A stretch of DNA of 64,000 bases, taken from positions 124,001 through 188,000 of the forward strand of contig NZ_RBLJ01000005.1 in assembly GCF_003634575.1 (NCBI RefSeq). The letters are read 5' to 3'. Both the position numbers and the translations under genes were made by a program. Source of the DNA: Photorhabdus asymbiotica. Lineage in GTDB: Bacteria; Pseudomonadota; Gammaproteobacteria; Enterobacterales; Enterobacteriaceae. Under the pieces are notes generated by a model. The model was not told where the DNA came from. It saw only the letters and a program-made list of their open reading frames with translations, and ran no database searches. Positions within the stretch are counted from its first letter, which is position 1. Every line of letters begins with the position of its first letter. Below, piece after piece: positions 48,630 through 63,162 of the stretch.

Positions 48630-49358
48630 TTATATATAGCCAAGTAATACAGCTTTCGCTATTGCCTGGAATTTGTTTCTACAACCTAGTTTCTTAACAA
48701 TATTCATTAGGTGAAAATCAACAGTACTTTTAGTGACACAAATGGTTAATGCAATCTCACTTGATGTCATCCCATCTGCTGTATACCTCAATACTTCTAA
48801 TTCTCTATTTGAAAATGAAGTTTCATCTACATAGAAAAACTGCAAATACTTTGTATGTGATGTCAAATATCTTATTATCCTAATATATACTCCTAAAATT
48901 TCTCCACTGCATTTATACATTGTCTCGTTATCAATGTGTCCGTCTTTCCCGGCAACAGAAAATATTCCGTAAGTTCCTGAAAATGCCGGAAGCCCAAATG
49001 TGATCCCAGAGCGAAATCCATGTTTCTGGCTCACATACCAAAGTTCTTGCCCATTGGATTCTGAAAAAAAATCCAAATCCCATATTTTTGAAAAAGAAGG
49101 TGGAACAGGTCGAAAATTTAGAGTTGGATCAATCATCCAATACTTTCTTTCGATATAAAGATTTCGCCAAGATTCATGATAATTATTAAAGAAATACACT
49201 TCACGATTAGATATCGGAAAGCGTGCCTTTAATATAAGGGAGAACAAACTAAACCCTGAAATTTTGTTAATAATTTCAAAAACTTCAGACACAAAATGAG
49301 CATCTACATCCAATTCATGAAATTTATAGGGTAAGGTATAAGACCGATAAACATTCAT
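48630..49358 (-). CDS. LuxR-type solo regulator 1 with autoinducer-binding domain
   Basis: The 242-residue protein has an N-terminal autoinducer-binding fold and a C-terminal LuxR/GerE helix-turn-helix (SNRELEVLRYTADGMTSSEIA, then KSTVDFHLMNIVKKLG). The residues that contact acyl-homoserine lactone in TraR-type proteins are kept: W64, Y68, D77, P78, W93 and G118. No luxI-type synthase is present in the window, so it is a solo. It is divergent from the first AidA/PixA gene across 500 bases. The signal it binds, if any, cannot be read from the sequence. Confidence 0.88.
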   Translation of the reverse strand: MNVYRSYTLPYKFHELDVDAHFVSEVFEIINKISGFSLFSLILKARFPISNREVYFFNNYHESWRNLYIERKYWMIDPTLNFRPVPPSFSKIWDLDFFSESNGQELWYVSQKHGFRSGITFGLPAFSGTYGIFSVAGKDGHIDNETMYKCSGEILGVYIRIIRYLTSHTKYLQFFYVDETSFSNRELEVLRYTADGMTSSEIALTICVTKSTVDFHLMNIVKKLGCRNKFQAIAKAVLLGYI

Positions 49359-49721
49359 TTAACGCCCTCTGAAAAATTAAGAATATTGATAGTAAATCCC
49401 AATATTTATTATAGTAGCAAAATTTATATTTAATAAAGAAAATAATAATTTGTTGTTATATAGAAGCAAGTTTTGACCAGCCACAATGTATTATTCGTAA
49501 ATGAGAGAAATTATATCAATAGGATTAAAATGTTAATCACCATGGGAAATAATATATATATAAAAACATATTACAGTCACATTAAGCCATTTCCAAGGTA
49601 ATTTAAAAAATCATTTAACATATTAATCTAAAGTTTTTGTTTTTTACTTTTTATAACAATAAATTAACTAAAATATTGAACTATAAAATCAATACCTAAT
49701 AAATATATGAGTAATTTTTCC

Positions 49722-49741
49722 GTATAAACTATGATTTATAC
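49722..49741 (+). promoter_or_regulatory. lux-box-like inverted repeat, copy 1
   Basis: GTATAAA and TTTATAC flank CTATGA, 7-bp arms, 122 bases before the AidA/PixA start at 49864. A -10-like TAATAG is centred about 31 bp downstream of the dyad. The downstream CAGTAGCTGTTTCA is also conserved with the other copies. Confidence 0.75.
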
Positions 49742-49863
49742 CAGTAGCTGTTTCAACTTTAATAGTTAATTATATAAAAAGAAAGTTATTAAAATAATAA
49801 TAAGTAATCAAAATAACCTTGCAATTCTGAATAAATAATTTAAATATGTAAAGAGGTGTTATG

Positions 49864-50451
49864 ATGAATGAAATCATTCAGGGTAAAGATAATATTACAG
49901 CTAGAAACTCTGTCACTGCTGATGTGACCTTTGTTATTGATGTTGATTCAATCATTGAGTATCTTCATACTAATAATATTAAAAACTCTCTGGACCCTAA
50001 AAATCCAATAACTATCCGTCAGCATGTATATATAGCTAATTATACTCCAGAACTTGGACTGAAAGTGGCGAGTTCATCTGGTGCTCGGGTCACTGTTCCT
50101 ATTAATGCAAATATTAGATGGAGGGCGACAACTGTATCTAATAATTTCGACTATACGATTATACTATATAAATTCAAAAAACTGAGTACCGGAGAAGATG
50201 TCATCTCCGTCCCATCACAAATATGGTCACAGAACCCTATAGGCAAAAAAGTTCCAATGGTCCCCTCAGGAGTTAATGCAGATAAGGATGAACCTACGGT
50301 AATTTTTATTGAATCTAAAGATAGTTATTTCCAGGCAACAGCTCATAAACCTGGTGTAGAACAATATACATGGTTTTTTGCCGCTTATGACGGCACAAAG
50401 CTTCTGGGTTATTATCGATACGATCCATATGTTGAAGTAACTAATAGTTAA
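49864..50451 (+). CDS. AidA/PixA-family protein 1
   Basis: AidA/PixA-family proteins include the quorum-controlled AidA of Burkholderia/Ralstonia and the inclusion-body protein PixA of Xenorhabdus; the biochemical role is unknown. The 195-residue product has the family core: DVTFVIDVDSII near residue 22, NANIRWRATTVSNNFDYTIILY near residue 78, and a C-terminal GYYRYDPYV. It is of the longer subtype shared with 55696. Alignment of its leader with that gene favours the second ATG (49864), with GAGG seven to eight bases upstream, over 49861. Probably cytoplasmic; there is no signal peptide. Confidence 0.85.
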   Translation: MNEIIQGKDNITARNSVTADVTFVIDVDSIIEYLHTNNIKNSLDPKNPITIRQHVYIANYTPELGLKVASSSGARVTVPINANIRWRATTVSNNFDYTIILYKFKKLSTGEDVISVPSQIWSQNPIGKKVPMVPSGVNADKDEPTVIFIESKDSYFQATAHKPGVEQYTWFFAAYDGTKLLGYYRYDPYVEVTNS

Positions 50452-50474
50452 ACACTTATATGCTGTAATTTCTC

Positions 50475-50504
50475 ACTGGAAAATTATCAAAATAATTTTC
50501 CAGT
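50475..50504 (+). terminator. Terminator after AidA/PixA gene 1
   Basis: ACTGGAAAATTAT and ATAATTTTCCAGT make a 13-bp stem with a 4-nt loop, then ATTTTTATTTT. The same terminator type follows the genes at 54369 and 55696. Confidence 0.93.
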
Positions 50505-50523
50505 ATTTTTATTTTACACGGTA

Positions 50524-50650
50524 TATACCCTATGGATTTCAAGACGCATCGCGACGGCCAGGGAGCGAATCCCCGGGAGCATAGATAACTCTGTGACCGG
50601 GGTGAGTGAGTGCCGCCAACAAAGAGGCAACTTGAAAGATAACGGGTATA
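50524..50650 (+). repeat. ERIC element 3 (127 bp)
   Basis: Full-length ERIC (TATACCC to GGGTATA) with core GACCGGGGTGAGTGAGTGCC. It lies between the AidA/PixA gene 1 terminator and the end of the second LuxR gene. Confidence 0.95.
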
Positions 50651-50836
50651 AAATATAGCTCGATATCTATAACAAACATTGAATAAAGAACAAGCAGAAC
50701 TGTGATATTACAATTCTGCCCGAGGAGAAGAGTATTTGATTGAACGAGTTTTTCGATCTTAAAAAATATCATTTCCATTTTACCCGGTAAAACTATTGCT
50801 AATCTCTATTCACTGCTGTGACAATAAAACCTACAA

Positions 50837-51565
50837 TTATATATACCCAAGTAACGCAGCTTTAGCAATTGCCTGAAATTTATTCCTACAACCCAACTTC
50901 TTAACGATATTCATTAGATGAAAATCAACCGTACTTTTAGTTACGCAAATAGTTGACGCAATCTCACTGGAGATCATGCCATCTGCGGTATACCGTAGCA
51001 CCTCTAATTCTCTATGCGAAAATGAAATTTCATCTATGTAGAATGTTTGTAAATACTTTGTATGTGATATCAAATATCTTATTATTCTAATATATACCTT
51101 CAGAATCTCCCCACTACATTTATACATTGTATCATTATCAATGGGCCCATCTTTCCCTGCAACAGAGAATATTCCATAAGTTCCCGAAAATGCCGGCAGA
51201 CCAAATGTGACCCCAGACCGAAACCCATGTTCCTGCGTCATATACCAAAGTTCTTTCCCATTGGATTCCGCAAAGAAATTCAAATCCCATACTCTTGAAA
51301 AAGTAGGCGGTACAGGCCGGAAGTGTAGAACAGGATCGATCATCCAATACTTTTTTTCTATATAAAGCGCCCTCCAAGATTCGTGATAATTATCAAAAAA
51401 ATACACTTCACGGCCAGATACCGGAAAGCGGGTCTTTAATACAAGAGAGAACAACCTAAATCCTGATATTTTGTCAATAAGTTCACAAATTTCATCTATA
51501 AAATAAGCATCTACATCTAATTCATGAAATTTATAGGGTGAAATATATGGTCGATAAATATTCAT
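50837..51565 (-). CDS. LuxR-type solo regulator 2 with autoinducer-binding domain
   Basis: A 242-residue close paralogue of regulator 1, same length and layout. All six ligand-pocket residues are again kept (W64, Y68, D77, P78, W93, G118) and the DNA-recognition helix (KSTVDFHLMNIVKKLGCRNK) is identical. Differences are mainly in the ligand domain (for example residues 22-30 and 41-51). The pair may therefore share operators but differ in the signal they read. It is divergent from the two-gene AidA/PixA unit beginning at 52046. Confidence 0.88.
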   Translation of the reverse strand: MNIYRPYISPYKFHELDVDAYFIDEICELIDKISGFRLFSLVLKTRFPVSGREVYFFDNYHESWRALYIEKKYWMIDPVLHFRPVPPTFSRVWDLNFFAESNGKELWYMTQEHGFRSGVTFGLPAFSGTYGIFSVAGKDGPIDNDTMYKCSGEILKVYIRIIRYLISHTKYLQTFYIDEISFSHRELEVLRYTADGMISSEIASTICVTKSTVDFHLMNIVKKLGCRNKFQAIAKAALLGYI

Positions 51566-51941
51566 TCAAATCCCTCTTAAATAAAAATTCAGAATATTGA
51601 TAATGAGCTCTAATATTTATCATAGTAGCAAAATTTTTATTTGATAAGTAAAATTTTTATTTATTGTGATAAAGAAGTACATAATCAGATAACATAAAAT
51701 TTTTTGCCCATTAACTTGAAAAATTATAATAATGTAGTTGAGTTTTCTATAATCAAGCCAAACATCATATATAATAGACACAAACCCTTCTTAAGAGAAT
51801 ATAAAACTATTTTTAATCAATATAAAAATACACTTTAATATATTATATAAAAACCCAATTGTTTTTAATTTAAAAACAATAAGTTAATAGGAAGATTAGC
51901 TATATCTAAGAGATGCCTCAGAAATATATAAGTAATTTATT

Positions 51942-51963
51942 GGTATAAACTATGATTTATACC
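51942..51963 (+). promoter_or_regulatory. lux-box-like inverted repeat, copy 2 (perfect 8-bp arms)
   Basis: GGTATAAA and TTTATACC flank CTATGA. A -10-like TAATAA is centred 31 bp from the dyad, and the ATG of the AidA/PixA gene is 83 bases past the repeat. This spacing matches a LuxR-type site overlapping the -35 region. Confidence 0.8.
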
Positions 51964-52045
51964 AGTGGTTATTTCAGGATTAATAATTGATCATTAAGTG
52001 ACAGAAAGATCTTAGAACGGCTTAGTCCAATAAAGGAGTACAGAA

Positions 52046-52561
52046 ATGAGTGAAATTGTGGATGTTCTTGTTTGCGTAGATGTTAATTCTATTATTAAGG
52101 AATATTCTTCCTTGAGCAACACTCCTAATTCTCCTACAAAAATAGATAATAAGTTCATTCGCCATATAACTAGCAATAGCAATACTTATCTACCGGAGAA
52201 AAATGCCACAGGAGAATTAAAAATAAAGATTAATATTGGTGATACTATTAAGTTAAGGGTTATGTCTCTAACACAACAATTTGAATATGGTATATATCCA
52301 CATAAAATAGTAATGCTACCCGAAAAAAAAGTCACACTAAATGCCTCTGATAATTACAGTTACACTCTTTATCTAGATAAAAGTGAAGATAGTTCAGATA
52401 TATGTGGAAAGTATGAGAATCAACAGACAGTGGATAACTACATAGAATGGAAAAGTCAAACTAGAGGACAAATATCATTTTACTGTGTTCTGTATATATA
52501 TAATGTGAAGATGAAACTTAATAAATATATTTTTTACGATACTAAGATTAATGTTTTATAA
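52046..52561 (+). CDS. AidA/PixA-family protein 2 (divergent)
   Basis: A 171-residue member with the family start (DVLVCVDVNSII, PTKIDNKFIRHIT) but a changed core: GDTIKLRVMSLTQQFEYG in place of the usual IRWRATSLS, and a C-terminal region that no longer matches (no GYxxHDP). It may be losing function or have specialised. An AAGGAG upstream supports the ATG. It forms a two-gene unit with the next gene, 36 bases later. Confidence 0.78.
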   Translation: MSEIVDVLVCVDVNSIIKEYSSLSNTPNSPTKIDNKFIRHITSNSNTYLPEKNATGELKIKINIGDTIKLRVMSLTQQFEYGIYPHKIVMLPEKKVTLNASDNYSYTLYLDKSEDSSDICGKYENQQTVDNYIEWKSQTRGQISFYCVLYIYNVKMKLNKYIFYDTKINVL

Positions 52562-52597
52562 ATTAAAAAATTATCATATAATAGTGAGGATAATATT

Positions 52598-53149
52598 ATG
52601 AATGACAAAACCAGTTTTAGAAAAATTAATTCCATTGATATTCTTGTTGCTGTTGATGTAAAATCTATCGCAAATGACATTGGCAAAATCAACTCAAAAT
52701 TGAGCCAAGATTGTAAAAAACCAACCCCAATTGATGATAAATATTTTTATTATATTACTACTCAAGATCAACAATACACTCCCAAGGATAATGCCACAGG
52801 TAAGACTATAATTACAGGAAAAGTAGGCGATTCTATTAGATGGCGGGCTACGAGTCTCTCTGCTCAAAATAACCATCAAGTATTTTTATATCATATGAAA
52901 GCACTATCAAATGCAACTTATACTTCTTCACCAATTATTAATAAATTATCTAGTGACATTTATTTTTCAAAGGAAACAATAAATCCTAAGACTGTCTGCA
53001 CTCCCTTTACAGCTATGTACATTTCTTATCTAGAAACTACGTTGCTTAGCCCAGGTGACGTCCAATATATATCCTATATATCTATATATGATAACAATAA
53101 CTCTCTGATTGGTTATTGCAGTCATGATCCACTTATTCATATTATTTAA
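52598..53149 (+). CDS. AidA/PixA-family protein 3
   Basis: A 183-residue member with an intact core: DILVAVDVKSIA near residue 10, KVGDSIRWRATSLSAQNNHQVFLYHM near residue 72, and the end GYCSHDPLIHII. It is the second gene of the unit controlled by repeat copy 2; GAGG upstream of the ATG. Closest in the window to the protein at 54369, which has the same position in the next unit. Confidence 0.87.
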   Translation: MNDKTSFRKINSIDILVAVDVKSIANDIGKINSKLSQDCKKPTPIDDKYFYYITTQDQQYTPKDNATGKTIITGKVGDSIRWRATSLSAQNNHQVFLYHMKALSNATYTSSPIINKLSSDIYFSKETINPKTVCTPFTAMYISYLETTLLSPGDVQYISYISIYDNNNSLIGYCSHDPLIHII

Positions 53150-53699
53150 TTTAATAACCAGATCCGTTAATCTCGGGCACTAGTACTATCTACTAATCAT
53201 CTAAATACAATAACTTTTCATACGATCCGATTAACAAGTATATCTTTCAGGCATGACGGTCAATTGCTATATTTCAACATCTTCCTACAAAAAGAAAATA
53301 CATTATGAAATATAAACAATTGACCTATAAAATAAGATATTGGAATACAAAACACACAATGAATTATTTTAATCTATAGTAAAATCATTTTCACTTATTA
53401 TACAGATGCACATAGAATCATTGGTTTATTATTTACTCTGATTCATAAACAAATAGAAAACTCAGAACTATAAGATCCTTAAAAACCGCTTATAACCGCT
53501 TTAATCAGCACTCAGAATTAGAAACAATTAATATTGTTTTAAACAAAACACACTCAAGATCTAATATCCCCCTAAAATAATACCAATGAAATTCTAACAG
53601 GCCAAACTCAAATATATAATTTAATTATTTAAAAATATAAAAGGTAAATTTAACTATTATCTAATACATCCATTAATAAATATATAAGCCATTTTCTTT
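53150..53699. other. AT-rich spacer
   Basis: About 550 bases with no supportable gene between two AidA/PixA units. The only recognisable element is the lux-box-like repeat that follows at 53700. No terminator of the 13-bp type is found here. Confidence 0.5.
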
Positions 53700-53717
53700 T
53701 ATAAACTATGATTTATA
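53700..53717 (+). promoter_or_regulatory. lux-box-like inverted repeat, copy 3
   Basis: TATAAA and TTTATA flank CTATGA (6-bp arms). TAATAT is centred 31 bp from the dyad and the next ATG is 100 bases past the repeat. The CAGTAGCTATTTCA segment after it matches the other copies. Confidence 0.75.
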
Positions 53718-53816
53718 CCAGTAGCTATTTCATATTTAATATTCCATATTTAATATGTTAGACAATTACTAAACAGTCTAACACAACATAACTCTCTATA
53801 ATCAAGGAGAATAAAA

Positions 53817-54338
53817 ATGAGCGAAGGTATAGATATTATGGTTTGTGTAGATGCAAACGCTATCGTTCAAAGATATAATTTGAGCAAGAGGTCTGACCTC
53901 CCTACAAAATTAGATAAAAATAACAAATACTTATATTACATCACTGGCAATGGGAATATTTATGCTCCTGGAAATAATGCCACAGCATGGACAGCTGTAA
54001 AAGTTGATAGTGGTTCTGTTATTAGGTGGAGGCCCTCATCCTTGTCACAACAATTTGAATATACAGTACTCCTATATGAAATGAAAGGTGATGCTATTAG
54101 CAAAGGAATTATTGATAGTCCTTCTATGTACTCTGGTGATATTACTATTCCTTACCTAGCTTTTGATAATGAAGAAACTATATCTACAATATATAAACAA
54201 GATAACGTAAGGCAGTACTATCATCAATCGACAGCTGAGAATAAAGGTAAAGGTTCATGTAATTGGTCTATGATGATATATAGAAGAGAAAGTTTAATGG
54301 GGTATATTTCTCATGAATTTTCAATTGAAATTATGTAA
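53817..54338 (+). CDS. AidA/PixA-family protein 4
   Basis: A 173-residue member: DIMVCVDANAIVQRY near residue 5, SGSVIRWRPSSLSQQFEYTVLLYEM near residue 64, and CNWSMMIYRRESLMGYISHEFSIEI at the end, so the core is preserved. AAGGAG upstream of the ATG. It leads a two-gene unit with 54369, the same design as 52046-52598. Confidence 0.86.
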   Translation: MSEGIDIMVCVDANAIVQRYNLSKRSDLPTKLDKNNKYLYYITGNGNIYAPGNNATAWTAVKVDSGSVIRWRPSSLSQQFEYTVLLYEMKGDAISKGIIDSPSMYSGDITIPYLAFDNEETISTIYKQDNVRQYYHQSTAENKGKGSCNWSMMIYRRESLMGYISHEFSIEIM

Positions 54339-54368
54339 ATCTATAAAACTAATAGTTGGAAAAATATT

Positions 54369-54941
54369 ATGAACAGCATAGAATATATTCCTTCAGAAGA
54401 TCGTTCTTTCAAACCTATTGATGTCATTGTCTGTGTCGATGCACAAACTATCGAAGATGATATCACTGCTGGTAAACTAAAATTAAGTAAAACACAAAAC
54501 TCTCCGACCGGAATTAGTAACAAATATTTTTATTATATTACTTCTCAGAATCAATTATATGCTCCCAAGAACAATGCCACAGGTGAGCTAGAAATTACAG
54601 ATAAAGTTGGCGGTATAGTGAGATGGAGAGCATCTAGTTTATCCACCCAATTTGATTACCAAGTATTTTTATATCATATGACAGGTTCAGGGGTTAATAC
54701 TTACATCTCCTTACCAACCCTTATAGAAACAGATTTTAACATCGTCGTTCCTGAACAAAAGGGGACAGGTTTACCTAATCACATATACCCAGTTACATTT
54801 AAACCGAGAAGGGTTTATCACCAACAATCTACGTTGCTTAGCCCAGGCAGAGCACAATATACATGGTATATATCTATCTATAATAGATGGAATAATCTCA
54901 TAGGTTATTGTACTCATGACCCATTCATTAATATAATTTAA
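54369..54941 (+). CDS. AidA/PixA-family protein 5
   Basis: A 190-residue member: DVIVCVDAQTIEDDI near residue 17, KVGGIVRWRASSLSTQFDYQVFLYHM near residue 79, and the family ending GYCTHDPFINII. It follows protein 4 by 30 bases and ends before the standard 13-bp-type terminator. Confidence 0.87.
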   Translation: MNSIEYIPSEDRSFKPIDVIVCVDAQTIEDDITAGKLKLSKTQNSPTGISNKYFYYITSQNQLYAPKNNATGELEITDKVGGIVRWRASSLSTQFDYQVFLYHMTGSGVNTYISLPTLIETDFNIVVPEQKGTGLPNHIYPVTFKPRRVYHQQSTLLSPGRAQYTWYISIYNRWNNLIGYCTHDPFINII

Positions 54942-54958
54942 TTATATGTTAATTTCTC

Positions 54959-54988
54959 ACTGGAAAATTGTTTTGATAATTTTCCAGT
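54959..54988 (+). terminator. Terminator after AidA/PixA gene 5
   Basis: ACTGGAAAATT and AATTTTCCAGT form an 11-bp stem with an 8-nt loop followed by ATTTTTAC. Confidence 0.9.
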
Positions 54989-55035
54989 ATTTTTACTTCC
55001 CACGTTATTGAATATATATAATAAACATTAATTCA

Positions 55036-55162
55036 TATACCCTATGGATTTCAAGATGCATCGCGACGGCAAGGGAGCGAATCCCCGGTCACATAGCTAA
55101 CTATGTGACCGGGGTGAGTGAGTGCCGCCAACAAAGAGGCAACTTGAAAGATGACGGGTATA
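55036..55162 (+). repeat. ERIC element 4 (127 bp)
   Basis: Full-length ERIC (TATACCC to GGGTATA). Its centre reads CCGGTCACATAG and CTATGTGACCGG, so the central arms pair perfectly, unlike the other four copies. Confidence 0.95.
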
Positions 55163-55305
55163 TAACAATAAAATACGATTTATCATAATAAGTACAACAT
55201 CATTTAGAATGGATGTTTATTCTTGTTAAATAATTAGTTACCTGTAAACTTTCAGAGATATTTAATGCATCAAGTCAATCTCCAAACCATATCAGTAATT
55301 TTCTT

Positions 55306-55325
55306 ATATAAACTATGATTTATAT
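55306..55325 (+). promoter_or_regulatory. lux-box-like inverted repeat, copy 4
   Basis: ATATAAA and TTTATAT flank CTATGA. The outer G-C pair of copies 1 and 2 is replaced by A-T on both sides, a compensatory change that keeps the dyad. The -10-like sequence is poor (TGAATG), in line with the broken gene it precedes. Confidence 0.72.
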
Positions 55326-55407
55326 CAGTAGCGATTTCAGTCTGAATGGTCAATTATTAGGTGATAACTAACTCTTCAAATATCTTAGTTCAATGAAGGA
55401 GCAAGAA

Positions 55408-55610
55408 ATGAGTAATATTGTAGATATTCTTCTTTATGCAGATGCCAAATTTATTATTAAAAGATATTGGAGATAACATTAGATGAAGAACAATATATTT
55501 ATCACAATAATTTGAGTATGCAGCGATTTTATATAACATGATAAAATAATTATTGACGGTATTATAACAACTCCAGAATTAAATTTTTACCTAATATCTA
55601 ATTATCAAAA
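55408..55610 (+). pseudogene. Broken AidA/PixA-family gene
   Basis: Begins with a good ribosome site and ATG (MSNIVDILLYADAKFIIKRYW), then stops after 22 codons. The remainder preserves, in shifted frames, the core GDNIR, LSQQFEYAAILYNM and a bit of the middle region. It resembles genes 52046 and 53817 with an internal deletion. Confidence 0.8.
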
Positions 55611-55695: not shown

Positions 55696-56292
55696 ATGAG
55701 TGACATAATTCAAAATAGATATGATTCGGTTGACGGTAGAGTGGTTACAGCTGAGGTTATCTTTGTTATTAGTGTTGAGGATATTCTTGCTTATCTTCAT
55801 AACCATCAGATCGATCCCAAACTGTATTTAGATTCAACAAACCCATATAGGCTCAATAGCGGTGTATATATCATTAGTTACACTCCAACGCTTGGAGTAC
55901 ACGGAATGCACGCTTCTTGTTCATCTGGCGAACACATAAAAGTGCCTGTAGGTTCGAACATTAGATGGAGGGCGACAACTATATCTGATAACTTCAATTA
56001 TACTGTTGTATTGTATAAATTCTATAAATTGCATTCATCAGGAGACGATATTATCTCGCCCCCATCAAAAATATGGTCACACACCTCAAGTAAAATAATT
56101 CCAGCCCTTCTATCTGGAGTAAATGCCAATGAAGATAGTCCTAAACTAGAGTTTACTGAAACCAACGATCATTTTTTTCAAGCAACAGCCCTCACTAAAG
56201 GTAAAGAACAATATACATGGGCTTTTTGTGTCTATGATGGGGAAGATCTACAAGGGTACTTTAAATACGATCCATATATTAAAGTAATATAA
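55696..56292 (+). CDS. AidA/PixA-family protein 6
   Basis: A 198-residue member of the longer subtype, closest to protein 1: VIFVISVEDILAYLHNHQID near residue 23, GSNIRWRATTISDNFNYTVVLYKF near residue 83, IWSHTSSKIIPALLSGVNANED and the end GYFKYDPYIKVI. GAGG upstream. It has no lux-box-like repeat directly before it; the nearest lies before the broken gene upstream, so the two may once have formed one unit. Confidence 0.86.
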   Translation: MSDIIQNRYDSVDGRVVTAEVIFVISVEDILAYLHNHQIDPKLYLDSTNPYRLNSGVYIISYTPTLGVHGMHASCSSGEHIKVPVGSNIRWRATTISDNFNYTVVLYKFYKLHSSGDDIISPPSKIWSHTSSKIIPALLSGVNANEDSPKLEFTETNDHFFQATALTKGKEQYTWAFCVYDGEDLQGYFKYDPYIKVI

Positions 56293-56322: not shown

Positions 56323-56352
56323 ACTGGAAAATTATCAGAGTAATTTTCCAGT
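56323..56352 (+). terminator. Terminator after AidA/PixA gene 6
   Basis: ACTGGAAAATTA and TAATTTTCCAGT form a 12-bp perfect stem with a 6-nt loop, followed by TATTAT. Confidence 0.9.
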
Positions 56353-56990: not shown

Positions 56991-58658
56991 ATGATAAAAA
57001 GAATATCTATTTTAATATTGTGGTGTATTTCCTCCCAAATAACCGCTTCACCAGCAGAGATAAATGATATTCTGCCAATGACAGAGGCCAGGAGAACGTT
57101 GCAAGAGAGTTCTCGGGAAATTAACCAATTAATAGAACAACGCCGATATCAGCAATTAAAACAGCAGGCTAATACCGTCCCTGAATCAACACCTGCGCCT
57201 GTATTGCCGGAATCCAGGCAGTGCCTGCCATTAACCGGGGTTTACCTTAAAGGGGTTTCTCTTCTCTCTGTACGAGATTTAAATACTCTCAGCGCTTTGT
57301 CCCCAGAGTGTATCAGTAGTCATGATATCAACCGACTTAGCCATGAACTGACTCGTCTCTATATCAGTAAAGGCTATGTCACTGCCCGTATTCAGTTTAT
57401 TGCTCCCGATGCAGATGGCGAGTTAGGGTTAAATGTTGTCGAAGGTTTTATTGAGAAAATCGAAGGCGGTGATCGTTGGGTTAACAGCAATATGTTGTTC
57501 CCCAGTCTGGAAAAACAACCTCTTAATATCACGCAACTTGATCAGGGTTTGGATCAGGCTAATCGGTTACAGTCCAATAAAACGACGCTGGATATTTTGC
57601 CAGGGACAGTTAATGGTGGTTCCATCATTAAACTGCATAATCAGCACAGTAAACCCTGGTTGCTGAATGTCACCACCGATAATTATGGACAGAAAAGTAC
57701 CGGGAAATGGCTGGCTCGCACAAACGCCAGTTTCGATAGCCCGTTGGGTTTATCTGACTTTATCAGCTTGAATGCCAGCAGCACGTTGGATAGCCCATCC
57801 AATCGATATAGCCGCGCCGCTACCCTACTCTATTCAGTACCCTACGGTGCAGCAACATTCAGCGGATTTGGCAGTTATTCCCAATATGCCAGTCATCCCT
57901 ATTTGCAAAATAAAACCGTAAAAATCTATGGGAATACGCAGCAATTTGGGATGCGTTCTGATTTTGCCTTCTATCGCAATCAATCTCAGATTAATACGGT
58001 CAGCGGGCAGCTTATTTATAAGAATTACAATAATTACATCAATGAATCCAAGATTGGTGTCAGCAGCCAAACGCTAAGTGTATTTGAACTCGGTGTTAAT
58101 CATTTACAAATCATCCCCACCGGTTTAATCACTCTGAATCTGAGTGTTGAACAGGGTTTACCTTGGTTCGGTGCACAAACTTCCACAACTGATCTCGATA
58201 AACAATTCACCAAAGGTAAGTTGATGGTCAACTTGCATCAGCGTTTTATGTTGTTCAACTCCCTTTATCAACTTAATAACCTGCTTTATGGGCAATACAA
58301 CCGGAGCGGTCTGCCCGGTGTCGAATGGCTGAATATCACTGATCGGAATGCGGTACGGGGATTTAGCAAAAACACGCTATCCGGTGATAACGGCTGGTAT
58401 CTGCAAAATACGCTATCCCGGACGTTCCCGATTGCTAACAGTACATTATCAATGCGTATCGGTATTGATGTCGGCCAAATCCACGGCTATCGCAGCCCTC
58501 TAGGCTGGCAAAGCAGTGCCGGAATAAGCACCGGAGCCACGCTGAAATATCAACGCATGGTATTTGATATCGAAGCCAGTCGTGGGAAATGGCTTTCCAA
58601 CCACAAAGCAGTCGATGAACCCGTTCAAGTTCTAACCCGTTTTTCTTACACCTTTTGA
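56991..58658 (+). CDS. Two-partner secretion transporter TpsB (ShlB/PhlB type)
   Basis: TpsB proteins of the Omp85 superfamily thread and, in the ShlB group, activate their TpsA partner across the outer membrane. The 555-residue protein has a signal peptide (ILILWCISSQITASPA), an N-terminal helix and proline-rich linker, two POTRA domains (CLPLTGVYLKGVSLLS, LYISKGYVTARIQF) and a 16-strand barrel. The lid-loop VRGF motif (NAVRGFSKN) lies near residue 455, and it ends in an aromatic residue (SYTF) for Bam recognition. Length equals that of ShlB. tpsA follows 61 bases downstream. Confidence 0.94.
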   Translation: MIKRISILILWCISSQITASPAEINDILPMTEARRTLQESSREINQLIEQRRYQQLKQQANTVPESTPAPVLPESRQCLPLTGVYLKGVSLLSVRDLNTLSALSPECISSHDINRLSHELTRLYISKGYVTARIQFIAPDADGELGLNVVEGFIEKIEGGDRWVNSNMLFPSLEKQPLNITQLDQGLDQANRLQSNKTTLDILPGTVNGGSIIKLHNQHSKPWLLNVTTDNYGQKSTGKWLARTNASFDSPLGLSDFISLNASSTLDSPSNRYSRAATLLYSVPYGAATFSGFGSYSQYASHPYLQNKTVKIYGNTQQFGMRSDFAFYRNQSQINTVSGQLIYKNYNNYINESKIGVSSQTLSVFELGVNHLQIIPTGLITLNLSVEQGLPWFGAQTSTTDLDKQFTKGKLMVNLHQRFMLFNSLYQLNNLLYGQYNRSGLPGVEWLNITDRNAVRGFSKNTLSGDNGWYLQNTLSRTFPIANSTLSMRIGIDVGQIHGYRSPLGWQSSAGISTGATLKYQRMVFDIEASRGKWLSNHKAVDEPVQVLTRFSYTF

Positions 58659-58719
58659 TGCTTTTCAGCAGTACCCAATGTTGCACACATAAATATAAAT
58701 AATATATAGAGACTCATGT

Positions 58720-61700
58720 ATGAAAAATAAAAAATTTAAGTTATCTCCTACTGGCAAGCTTGCCGCTTCCATGGCAATCATCCTTGTGTCCTGTTCTACC
58801 AGCTTTGCTAACGACATCGTCGGTGGCGGCGATTCGGCACATCGTCCCGATATTTTAGCTATCGAAGGTAAAGCAACGGTTATAAATATCGTGCCCCCTT
58901 CCCCGTCCGGGCTGTCACATAACCAATATTTGGATTATAACGTCGGCCACGCTGGGGCCGTTCTGAATAACGCTTTGCAGGATGGCCAATCACAATTAGC
59001 GGGTCAACTCGCGGCTAACCCCAATCTGAATGGCCAAGCCGCCAGCCTGATTCTGAATGAAGTGATCAGCAGGAATCCTTCCCTGTTATTAGGTCAACAG
59101 GAAGTCTTCGGCATAGCCGCAGATTATGTGTTGGCAAACCCGAATGGCATTACGTGTAATGGCTGTGGTTTTATCAATACCAACCAAGCTTCTCTGGTCG
59201 TCGGTAATCCACTGGTGGAACAAGGCAATCTGCAAAGTTTTAATACTTTTAATAATCAGAATGGCTTGAAGATTAAATCAGATGGCTTAACCGCCAATGC
59301 GGTTCTTAATCTCATTGCCCCCAAAATTGACAATCGGGGCACTGTCACAGCTCAAAAACAGATTAATGCTATCAGTGGTGCAAATAAAATCTCAGCCACA
59401 AGAGACGTGATCGATTCTCAGCAAGAATTGACTGGCGTACTGGATAGCTATTATCTCGGCAGTATGCAAGCCGGACGTATCCATCTGCTCAATACCGCCA
59501 AAGGCAGCGGGGTCAATCTACAAGGCTCTCTTACTGCAAGTAACGAGATTATTGTTGATGCTCACGGCAACCTTAATTTAGAAGCTGCGCACCTACAAGG
59601 TGGAAATATTGATCTTCTGGGCGATAATATTGAGGTAAAAGGTAAAGTCAGCGAATCGAAATATAATCGTGACGGCAGTAATAATTACCAAAGCTATTTT
59701 CGCAGTGTTTATACCAATGATAGTAAAAATAGCCAGTCAATTACTCGTACTAAATTAGCAGGTAAAAATATTTCACTGGTTGCTAATAATAATCATCAGA
59801 TTACAGCCACTGATATAGTGGGTGACGATGTTAATCTCAGTGGTGCCAATCTGACTTTAGATGGACAGCAATTAAATCAATCCACTAAGAATATTGATAA
59901 CCAACGGGGTTATTCCTGGCGATATGAGGTTACTAAGGAGAGTGAAAAACAGCATCAAGCAGGAAACAATATTCAGGCTAAAAAAAATGTGGTTTTAAAC
60001 GCGACAGAAGGTGACGTTAAGATCCTTGGCAGCAAAATAGATGCTAAAGATAAACTGGCGATTACCGCGAAAAAAGGTGTCCAAATTGCTGGTCTGACTG
60101 AAACAGAAAAAACGTCTGAAACAGGTTACAAAAAAAATCACACCGCTAAATTGCAGACAGGAAGTTGGGAAGAGAGTAAACAAACTCAGCGTCTGATCGC
60201 CAGTGAATTACAAGCAGGAACTGATCTTAATATTAAGGCAGGAACCCAAGCCGACATTCTTGGCGCTAAAGTCCACGCAGGTCAAAATATGACTGTGACC
60301 GCCGGTCAACAACTGCAAATCGATGTTCAAAAAATCTCTGACAACCGTATTGTACGTGATGATAAAAAATATTGGGGCGGTATTGGCGGGGGCGGTAATA
60401 AAGATAACAGTGAGTTGAAAGAAACCAGTCATGCATCTGAACTGACTGCCAACGGGCGTTTATTGCTGTCAGGCCAAGAGGGTATATCCATTACCGGCAG
60501 TAAAGTCAAAGCGGATCAAGGTGCTTTTGTTGATGCCAATAGTGGCAAATTAACTATTGATAATGCGGTCAGTCATCTCAATCAGAAAATTGATGAGCGA
60601 ACGGGAACCGTATTCAATATTACCAACAGCTCACAAAAAACTAATAGCAAGCAACAGAAATCCCATGGCAGTGAATTAGTTTCTGAGGCGGATCTTAAAT
60701 TACTCGGTGATGAAGATTTCAATATCATTGGCAGTCAGGTAAAAAGTGCCGGTGCGCTCAATCTGAAGACAGCCGGTAATATCAAGGTACTTTCTTATGG
60801 CGAACAGCAACAGGTTGATAAACAAAACACCTCGTTGGATCTACAAAGCCACTTCCAACCAAAGGCAGATAAACAGTATCGTGCCGGAGTAGGTATTGAA
60901 CATACCAGTAATAGCCAGAAAAATCAGACGGTCATCCAAAAAGCTTCCACCTTGAGCGGAGGAAGTATCACTCTCGATACTGATAAAGACGTCATTCTCA
61001 CTGGTTCTAATCTGGTGACAACCAAGGGTGATGCTAAGATCAGCGGAGCAAATGTTCATCTGTTAGCGGCGGAAGGCAAAAAATCTGAAGAGAAATTTCA
61101 GAGCAACAAGCACGTTGGTGTCTATCTTACAGGCGGAATAGATAAAGTAGGCTCAGGTATCTATGGTGGCTATGAAGGCAATAACAGCAATCATACCAAC
61201 AGTACCGCTGTCGTTTCTGGTTCTCAGATCGCAGGTGATCTGAATATTAAAGCCAATGGTGAATTGATTCAGGAAGGTACTGACCATAAAGTCAGTGGTA
61301 CTTACACCGCTGAGGCAGGTAAAGTCAGCAATTTGGCCACATCCAATACAGAATCACATTCCAATAATAAACTACAAGTTGGCACCGATATTGGCGTCAA
61401 TATCGATTATAGCGCTGTCACCCGCCCGGTTGAGAAAGCAGTAAAAGACCCCGTTAAAGCCGCTCTGGATGGCACGTTCACCAAGAAAGGTACCCCTAAT
61501 CTGGGAGCAGATCTTGCAGCCAACGGCAATAACATCCAGACTGAGGACAAAAAGTCTGAAGCGGTTGTAACATCTGTCCAGGCCAGCAATGTCGTTATTA
61601 AAACCAATGGCGAACTGTATGATCAAGGCACTCAGTACCACGCCAACAAGGGTAACGTTACATTGGAAGCCGGCAACCATACCAGTGAAGCAGCGCAGAA

Positions 61701-63162
61701 TCGCCACGAAAGTCGTCACAATGAAACCAGCGGCAAGGCTGACCTGCGGGTTTATACCACAACCGGCGAAGATATCTCCGCGAATGGTAAAGGCAAAGGT
61801 GGCACACAAAGCAGCTATACTGCCACAACCCAATCTGTCACCAGCAAGATTACCGCAGAAAATGACATTAATATCCGTGTCGATAGAGATGCTGAATATC
61901 AAGGCACATCTTTGGATGCCAAAACAGGTAAAACCAACATAGACGCTGGAGGTGATATCCGTTTTGATCATGCCGCCAACAGCACAACGAAAACCTCGAC
62001 TGGCTATCACGGTGAAGCTTCTGCTAAAGGCGGAAACTCCCCAGAAGGCAAGAATATTCACATTGGTCTTGGTGGCGGTTATAACACCGATAGCAAAAAT
62101 AGCAGCACAGCTCAGGTGAGTAAGATTGACGGTCAGCAAGGTGTCAACCTGAACGCAGGTAATCATTTGACACTGAAAGGCTCAGAAGTAACAGGCAAGC
62201 AGATCGATCTGAAGGCTAAACAAGGTAATGTTGAATTGGTATCTGCTCAGGATCGAGTGAATAACGACGGTTGGGAATTCAATCTGAAAGGCAACGGTGG
62301 TCATTCAAACTCCGTCAAAAAAGCGGAAGATGACAGTACAACTACCACCACAAAACAGAGCTTTGGTGGAGAACTCAAAGCCGGAGTTGATCGCCTGCAA
62401 GCAACAACTCACCATAATAGCCATATTAAAGGTGAAAATGTCGTTATCAACAGTGGCGGTGATACAACAATTAGCGGGGCACGGATAGACGCTGATCAAG
62501 TAACAGGTAACATTGGCGGTGACTTGCGGGTCGAAAGCCGTAAAGACACTGAACATGGGCTGAATGTCGGTGTTGATGCGGGTCTTAATTACGCGAAAGA
62601 ATCCAAAGTAAAAAGCGACGATCTACCTAAAGATGAGGCAACGAAAGATAGTCCACCTCAGGATGATTCATCTAAAGACGATATATTGAAAGATGATCCA
62701 ACTAAAAATCCAACAGAAGAGCCACAACAGAAAGGATTGCAGGAAAGGCTGACCTCCGCATTTAACACTATCAATAATCTTAAAGGTATTAATGGGGTTA
62801 CAGGTAAATTCAAAGGCAATGTCGATATCAAAGATCGGGAAAGTGTCAGTGAACAATCCGTTATTTCCGGTAATCAGGGAGTTAATCTGGATGTAAAAGG
62901 AAATACACATCTGGTCGGCGGGCAGATTGGTAGCGAGAAAGGTAATGTCATTCTTAATACCCAAAATGTAGAACAACAATCTGTCACCGGCTATGACAAT
63001 GGTAAAGGAGGTAACATTGCATTACCTGATTCTGTTAGCGGAATTGTCAAAGCCGTTCAAGAAGGTGTATTGTCCGGTAAAATACCTTTGGTGAAAACCT
63101 ATAGTAATGAAACCGAAAATGGTATGACTAATGGTGAAATAATTAATCATAAGTCTCAGTAA
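58720..63162 (+). CDS. Two-partner secreted hemolysin/hemagglutinin TpsA (ShlA/PhlA-like)
   Basis: The 1480-residue exoprotein has a signal peptide (LAASMAIILVSCSTSFA), then the TPS secretion domain (about 31-260). The motif ANPNGITCNGCGF contains the two cysteines (146 and 149) found in ShlA/HpmA-type hemolysins. The rest is beta-helical filamentous repeats (DVNLSGANLTLDGQQL type), with an acidic Asp/Pro-rich linker near 1310-1340. The C-terminus ends without a VENN motif or a toxin domain, so it is not a contact-dependent inhibition protein. It is somewhat shorter than ShlA (about 1600). Photorhabdus PhlA is of this class; identity with it is likely but not proven. Confidence 0.88.
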   Translation: MKNKKFKLSPTGKLAASMAIILVSCSTSFANDIVGGGDSAHRPDILAIEGKATVINIVPPSPSGLSHNQYLDYNVGHAGAVLNNALQDGQSQLAGQLAANPNLNGQAASLILNEVISRNPSLLLGQQEVFGIAADYVLANPNGITCNGCGFINTNQASLVVGNPLVEQGNLQSFNTFNNQNGLKIKSDGLTANAVLNLIAPKIDNRGTVTAQKQINAISGANKISATRDVIDSQQELTGVLDSYYLGSMQAGRIHLLNTAKGSGVNLQGSLTASNEIIVDAHGNLNLEAAHLQGGNIDLLGDNIEVKGKVSESKYNRDGSNNYQSYFRSVYTNDSKNSQSITRTKLAGKNISLVANNNHQITATDIVGDDVNLSGANLTLDGQQLNQSTKNIDNQRGYSWRYEVTKESEKQHQAGNNIQAKKNVVLNATEGDVKILGSKIDAKDKLAITAKKGVQIAGLTETEKTSETGYKKNHTAKLQTGSWEESKQTQRLIASELQAGTDLNIKAGTQADILGAKVHAGQNMTVTAGQQLQIDVQKISDNRIVRDDKKYWGGIGGGGNKDNSELKETSHASELTANGRLLLSGQEGISITGSKVKADQGAFVDANSGKLTIDNAVSHLNQKIDERTGTVFNITNSSQKTNSKQQKSHGSELVSEADLKLLGDEDFNIIGSQVKSAGALNLKTAGNIKVLSYGEQQQVDKQNTSLDLQSHFQPKADKQYRAGVGIEHTSNSQKNQTVIQKASTLSGGSITLDTDKDVILTGSNLVTTKGDAKISGANVHLLAAEGKKSEEKFQSNKHVGVYLTGGIDKVGSGIYGGYEGNNSNHTNSTAVVSGSQIAGDLNIKANGELIQEGTDHKVSGTYTAEAGKVSNLATSNTESHSNNKLQVGTDIGVNIDYSAVTRPVEKAVKDPVKAALDGTFTKKGTPNLGADLAANGNNIQTEDKKSEAVVTSVQASNVVIKTNGELYDQGTQYHANKGNVTLEAGNHTSEAAQNRHESRHNETSGKADLRVYTTTGEDISANGKGKGGTQSSYTATTQSVTSKITAENDINIRVDRDAEYQGTSLDAKTGKTNIDAGGDIRFDHAANSTTKTSTGYHGEASAKGGNSPEGKNIHIGLGGGYNTDSKNSSTAQVSKIDGQQGVNLNAGNHLTLKGSEVTGKQIDLKAKQGNVELVSAQDRVNNDGWEFNLKGNGGHSNSVKKAEDDSTTTTTKQSFGGELKAGVDRLQATTHHNSHIKGENVVINSGGDTTISGARIDADQVTGNIGGDLRVESRKDTEHGLNVGVDAGLNYAKESKVKSDDLPKDEATKDSPPQDDSSKDDILKDDPTKNPTEEPQQKGLQERLTSAFNTINNLKGINGVTGKFKGNVDIKDRESVSEQSVISGNQGVNLDVKGNTHLVGGQIGSEKGNVILNTQNVEQQSVTGYDNGKGGNIALPDSVSGIVKAVQEGVLSGKIPLVKTYSNETENGMTNGEIINHKSQ

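Follow-up and report, generated by a model that had tools for sequence, protein, structure and literature searches.

The question raised by this locus is which protein binds a 22-bp element that occurs four times, each time in front of a transcription unit of AidA/PixA genes, in a 64,000-nucleotide stretch of Photorhabdus asymbiotica DNA (contig NZ_RBLJ01000005.1, positions 124,001 to 188,000 of the forward strand; hereafter the window), whether this protein switches the genes on or off and how far the arrangement extends. We report the distribution, the conservation and the linkage of the element as observed in the window, in 12 genomes of the genus and beyond, and compare them with the SdiA-aidA pair of P. 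luminescens DJC (Dominelli et al. 2023; PMC10143992; statements on this and the other articles cited by accession refer to the parts of their text that were accessible). It is well supported that a common operator, probably of LuxR type, is tied to PixA promoters far beyond the window. The four sites are probably bound by the neighbouring receptor, SdiA, and we consider it likely that they belong to a regulon in which SdiA controls PixA genes through this operator. Such a regulon would have spread as a luxR-operator-pixA unit duplicated, and it would be repressed without signal and released by signal.

Four operators in front of PixA units

Scanning the window with the 22-bp element proposed by an earlier sequence-only reading of this DNA returned four sites, for which 100 shuffles gave a chance expectation of 0:

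49721..49742, plus strand: operator 1, 22-bp element with 1 mismatch
51942..51963, plus strand: operator 2, 0 mismatches
53698..53719, plus strand: operator 3, 2 mismatches
55305..55326, plus strand: operator 4, 3 mismatches

Each operator has an AidA/PixA unit (PF12306) downstream, and one of these units is broken, just as had been claimed: operator 4 is followed first by a broken PixA gene (start at approximately 55409) and then by an intact one at 55696. The part common to all four sites is the 18-mer TATAAACTATGATTTATA, which in the 5.1-Mb genome occurs as an exact string solely at the four operators. With up to 3 mismatches it gives 21 matches in this genome (four exact, one with 2 mismatches, 16 with 3) and thus does not exceed the 23 of the reversed control; the exact four are the operators. 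The match with 2 mismatches (L005) adjoins a dispersed repeat, has no PixA or LuxR match and was judged to be a chance occurrence.

The identity among the four window promoters is 0.91 in the core, 0.66 and 0.68 in the flanks and 0.29-0.41 farther out, while the PixA proteins of the four units are 28-52% identical to each other, suggesting the core being held by selection and not just by recent copying. Reading from the alignments, CAGT(A/G)G and TTTCA are present in all four copies, and in three of the four the centre of TAATA(G/A/T) indeed lies 31 bp away from the dyad. A BLAST search of a plasmid collection with the region gave two short repeat matches only.

Distribution in the genus and beyond

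Among 145 genomes, the 18-mer with up to 1 mismatch was found in 12/12 genomes of the genus and in 2/133 others, its reversed control in 0/12 and 6/133, respectively; the two outside matches (L022, L034) have no PixA or LuxR match within the 3 kb fetched. In the other 11 genus genomes a PixA frame lies downstream at 24/24 loci fetched, mostly at a distance of 80-250 bp and once of 485 bp. A pattern lengthened on its right side, AAACTATGATTTATANCAGTRG, gave 43 matches in the 12 genomes when up to 3 mismatches were allowed, versus 2 for the reversed control. These comprise 35 matches at PixA units, seven of one recurring string, ATA(C/T)TATGATTTATTACAG, and one stray (G009:C69). A PF12306 search detected 55 PixA genes in the 12 genomes, which we grouped by hand into 38 transcription units; 35 of these carry the site in its 22-base version, with 3 mismatches at most. 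The PixA genes devoid of a site are located elsewhere in the G007 and G004 genomes (G007 C1:2871115, G004 C29 and G004 C36; L060, L061, L076).

Three of the seven loci with the recurring string (L133, L137, L142) are situated inside a frame resembling, by look, a PAS4-LuxR solo; L133 and L142 (G008:C15) show tandem PAS4-LuxR-like genes, also by look, and PAS4-LuxR gene clusters are described in the accessible Photorhabdus literature. None of the 27 PixA loci examined outside the genus, i.e. in the family and in genus g13 (probably Xenorhabdus), has the element, the best match showing at least 5 mismatches. The 30 genomes of g13 contain 8 three-mismatch matches versus 13 of the reversed control, with 0 on PixA contigs.

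Linkage to SdiA and traces of duplication

The PixA and LuxR genes around the operators are as follows:

48630..49358, minus strand: LuxR solo 1, SdiA orthologue (Pfam and relatives)
49861..50451, plus strand: PixA/AidA gene of unit 1, counterpart of the published aidA (Pfam)
50837..51565, minus strand: LuxR solo 2, 83% identical to solo 1 (Pfam and relatives)
52046..52561, plus strand: PixA gene, unit 2 (Pfam)
52598..53149, plus strand: PixA gene, unit 2 (Pfam)
53817..54338, plus strand: PixA gene, unit 3 (Pfam)
54369..54941, plus strand: PixA gene, unit 3 (Pfam)
55409..55540, plus strand: broken PixA gene, unit 4 (pieces only, approximate ends)
55696..56292, plus strand: PixA gene, unit 4 (Pfam)

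All 6/6 intact PixA proteins of the window score above the curated cut-off of PF12306. Both LuxR proteins contain the Autoind_bind and GerE domains according to Pfam, keep the pocket residues W, Y, D, P, W and G as judged by eye against E. coli SdiA and are identical in the recognition-helix stretch TKSTVDFHLMNIVKKL, confirming the view of two LuxR solos with intact pockets and the same recognition helix. LuxR solo 1 shows 95% identity to the SdiA-like protein of P. australis DSM 17609 and 88-92% to those of 11 other Photorhabdus records. For P. asymbiotica, two SdiA homologues, Pau0252 and Pau0255, were reported with complete pocket residues, and the absence of a LuxI partner is stated (PMC4235431); our search for the LuxI family PF00765 matched 0/12 genus genomes, but the control genomes gave none either.

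Within the sdiA cluster the operator is placed between the LuxR gene and the divergently read PixA gene. Close SdiA relatives are single in 10/12 genus genomes and double in G000 and G011, and throughout the 12 genomes every one of them sits on a contig bearing a linked operator. The operator is also found before unlinked PixA units in five genomes (G001, G003, G004, G006, G009), and the seven unlinked stretches (7-19 kb) have no match to a model of the two window LuxR proteins. As these operons lack a nearby SdiA-like gene, SdiA, if it is the regulator, must act on them in trans. Next to one operator of G011 (L024) a luxR remnant of 41 codons is left, suggesting luxR-operator-pixA to be the unit that was duplicated. 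In the window we detected no significant LuxR remnant ahead of operators 3 and 4.

Near-identical terminator-like hairpins (ACTGGAAAATT...AATTTTCCAGT) follow three PixA units at 50475-50504, 54959-54988 and 56323-56352, the third being read by eye. A dispersed repeat of ~130 bp (CTATGGATTTCAAGA(T/C)GCATCGCGACGGC...) is present at ~50523-50654 and ~55035-55165, at L005 and L015 and at other places in the genome. Directly after the PixA cluster, at 56991-63162, lie a two-partner-secretion transporter-like frame and a large haemagglutinin-like frame, both named by look.

The published SdiA-aidA promoter

In the sister species P. luminescens, SdiA binds the element-containing fragment, does so more weakly with root exudate, and aidA is higher in the sdiA mutant (PMC10143992). 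By surface plasmon resonance (SPR), SdiA of strain DJC bound the aidA promoter (PaidA) with a dissociation constant (KD) of 4.4 nM at 1:2 stoichiometry and the sdiA promoter (PsdiA) with 27.4 nM at 1:1; root exudate loosened binding to 13.3 nM and 109 nM, respectively, PfliE was not bound, and deletion of sdiA raised aidA by log2 2.22 (PMC10143992). The sequence-only reading knew of no pairing of the element with these regulators; that of regulator and gene has been in print as SdiA-aidA since 2023.

We used the published primers, of which 6/7 match genome G007 perfectly and the seventh with 1 mismatch, to place both fragments, and the G007 element lies within the SPR-bound PaidA fragment. This fragment contains exactly two CT-N12-AG strings, one of which overlaps the element, and the PsdiA fragment contains one, in line with the published stoichiometries. 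At G007 (L101, 7868-9514) a transposase-like frame of ~550 codons, recognised by look, is situated between aidA and sdiA; the primers of both promoters match. A literature search, with subscription journals sparsely covered, showed among the papers listed no other that, judging from its entry, deals with this promoter or with a Photorhabdus PixA regulon.

Promoter layout and symmetry

The two CT-N12-AG strings, here called box I and box II, and the putative promoter elements are located in the window as follows:

49696..49711, plus strand: box I of promoter 1, CT-N12-AG, 33 bp upstream of box II
49729..49744, plus strand: box II of promoter 1, CT-N12-AG
49735..49763, plus strand: putative -35 TTTATA and -10 TTTAAT of promoter 1, 17-bp spacer (by eye)
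51917..51932, plus strand: box I of promoter 2
55280..55295, plus strand: box I of promoter 4

At operator 3 the C of box I is lost. Box II overlaps the putative -35 (TTTATA), which precedes the putative -10 (YTTAAT) by 17 bp; a promoter consensus scan did not list the four window promoters, and -35 and -10 were assigned by eye. The alternative -10 AATAGT would put the AT dyad near -42, and with two possible -10 assignments the geometry alone fits an activator and a repressor alike.

We found 29 sites in the genus and aligned 28, since G004:C32 came without its locus. The CT-N12-AG frame, being 5 bp off the dyad frame, is invariant in 28/28 sites; the search pattern contains the CT of this frame but not the AG. 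The conserved block over these sites extends from approximately -22 to +47 of the 18-mer and is broader than the dyad. A set of 33 promoters was chosen with a pattern requiring CT and AG and is therefore no evidence for those bases. One of these promoters ends at a contig edge, so box I was judged in 32, of which 22 have it 33 bp upstream. Box I is absent from the eight readable promoters with a TAAAAA arm, all unlinked, and from two cluster promoters; it is present in five unlinked promoters of another type (third PixA pair).

The element had been described as an inverted repeat with GG...CC outer half-sites, the outer bases changing together. Counting over 28 sites and 33 distinct promoters led us to reject this covariation: the pair adjoining the 18-mer is complementary in 8/33 promoters and the next pair outward in 1/33, and among 198 arm pairs (six in each of 33 promoters) 19 are broken and 0 changed on both sides, the left arm holding 6/7 distinct arm changes. 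The dyad as such was also rejected, three of the four sites being within the shuffle range. On the axis of the sequence-only reading, the only one used for the symmetry test, the site at 51942 alone is clearly above shuffles at a 6-bp spacer (0/400; P 0.165, 0.30 and 0.055 for the other three), and allowing spacers of 4-8 bp results in P of 0.44, 0.03, 0.72 and 0.16 for the four sites.

Discussion

We propose a model in which all four elements would represent the same SdiA operator, each copy lying within a conserved core promoter of ~70 bp. Dimers of the SdiA-type LuxR solos, whose genes lie among the PixA units, may bind this operator, mainly contacting box II, in overlap with the putative -35, and perhaps box I as well, 33 bp further upstream. 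In the absence of signal AidA/PixA transcription would be held down, and an outside signal, i.e. a short acyl-homoserine lactone or a plant-root compound, would loosen SdiA binding resulting in expression of the AidA/PixA genes. The operator may have spread via duplication of the divergent luxR-operator-pixA unit, and the unlinked PixA operons of sister species would be under the control of SdiA in trans. For P. asymbiotica we infer SdiA contact at the element itself, a response of all four promoters, a role of both LuxR copies and the direction of control given here. More tentatively, the regulon might have grown by copying its own control unit: luxR-operator-pixA would have been duplicated and have lost luxR copies, the one operator remaining would connect PixA operons, linked or not, with SdiA in trans, and in the two-copy genomes receptors with the same recognition helix and diverged signal domains would compete for the same operators, thereby merging two outside signals. 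We hold this scenario to be possible and a good deal less certain than the regulon itself.

Several points weigh against an SdiA operator regulon. The operator copies descend from duplications and are hence not independent, 3/38 PixA units are without a site (best 6-8 mismatches), box I is absent from 10/32 promoters and the PsdiA box is kept in 7/15 sdiA promoters. With 3.75 occurrences per kb in this AT-rich region, CT-N12-AG is expected ~0.7 times per published fragment by chance, so its invariance favours that frame without proving it. The -10 is ambiguous, and a link to the cep box was rejected, the best matches being 11-12/18 (P 0.115-0.59 versus shuffles) with the best offset scattering among promoters. 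The published SdiA boxes are, in the accessible text, putative, the aidA rise was seen in one condition (LB medium, 24 h, secondary-variant cells), and aidA and sdiA are 2.3 kb apart in G007 versus the published shared 310-bp intergenic region (PMC10143992).

The alternative surviving best, although we consider it unlikely, is activation by SdiA from the LuxR class II position, as the sequence-only reading had suggested for a LuxR protein at the -35 edge, with the ligand-bound receptor touching RNA polymerase there and turning PixA on. TAATA lying ~31 bp off the dyad centre of three window copies, the dyad position near -42 given by the alternative -10 and the activation of aidA genes by CepR and SolR elsewhere agree with it. 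At the orthologous promoter, however, aidA goes up on sdiA deletion, if in one condition and in another species, and root exudate weakens binding (PMC10143992), which favours genes being repressed until a signal releases them and speaks against an activator. Slightly less probable still is an operator of another regulator, be it another LuxR solo or a global regulator, with SdiA binding elsewhere on the fragment, for example only at box I. The published SdiA binding refers to the whole fragment, and the unlinked TAAAAA-arm promoters have box II without box I, so box II could serve another protein; yet SdiA genes adjoin linked operators in every genome examined, and the PixA loci examined in genera lacking a close SdiA relative there do not have the site. 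We regard it as improbable that there is no specific operator and that the block represents for the most part a conserved core promoter passed on by duplication: conservation does reach past the dyad (~-22 to +47 of the 18-mer) and three of the four sites show no symmetry beyond chance, but the core is at 0.91 versus 0.68 for the putative -10 region, and is likewise set apart from the genes, and SdiA binds the PaidA fragment but not PfliE (PMC10143992).

Repression by SdiA through a shared operator would extend the single SdiA target in print to a regulon predicted for the whole genus and defined by a concrete sequence, in which several PixA proteins, unlinked pairs included, are released together by an outside signal. 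The role of the PixA inclusion proteins and the signal of SdiA thereby become testable with one mutant and one operator.

Comparison with known systems

Within the same genus, PluR/PauR are LuxR-type receptors which also control an adjacent operon, pcf, but differ in their pocket motifs, TYDQCS and TYDQYI (PMC4235431, PMC4414361). PluR/pcf as owner of the unlinked sites was rejected, these loci being PixA pairs without a LuxR match; pcf itself was not located, nor was its promoter, and the exact 18-mer is found nowhere in the own genome beyond the four operators. In Ralstonia solanacearum the gene of the LuxR-type receptor SolR likewise lies near two PixA-family genes, whereas control is positive and the gene orientation is different (as described in PMC10143992). 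CepR of Burkholderia cenocepacia resembles the proposed system as a LuxR-type receptor controlling a PixA-family aidA, with a second box suspected upstream, and differs in activating with its ligand and in having a synthase, CepI (PMC1766932, PMC9060813). Closest is SdiA-aidA of P. luminescens DJC (PMC10143992), sharing the gene pair, the element in the SPR fragment and two CT-N12-AG boxes in PaidA. The SdiA-aidA pairing is already known from that work, which covers one aidA promoter and, in its accessible text, calls other SdiA targets unknown; what is new is the extension from a single promoter to a predicted regulon of the genus, the window having four promoters and two SdiA copies, and unlinked operons occurring across the genus.

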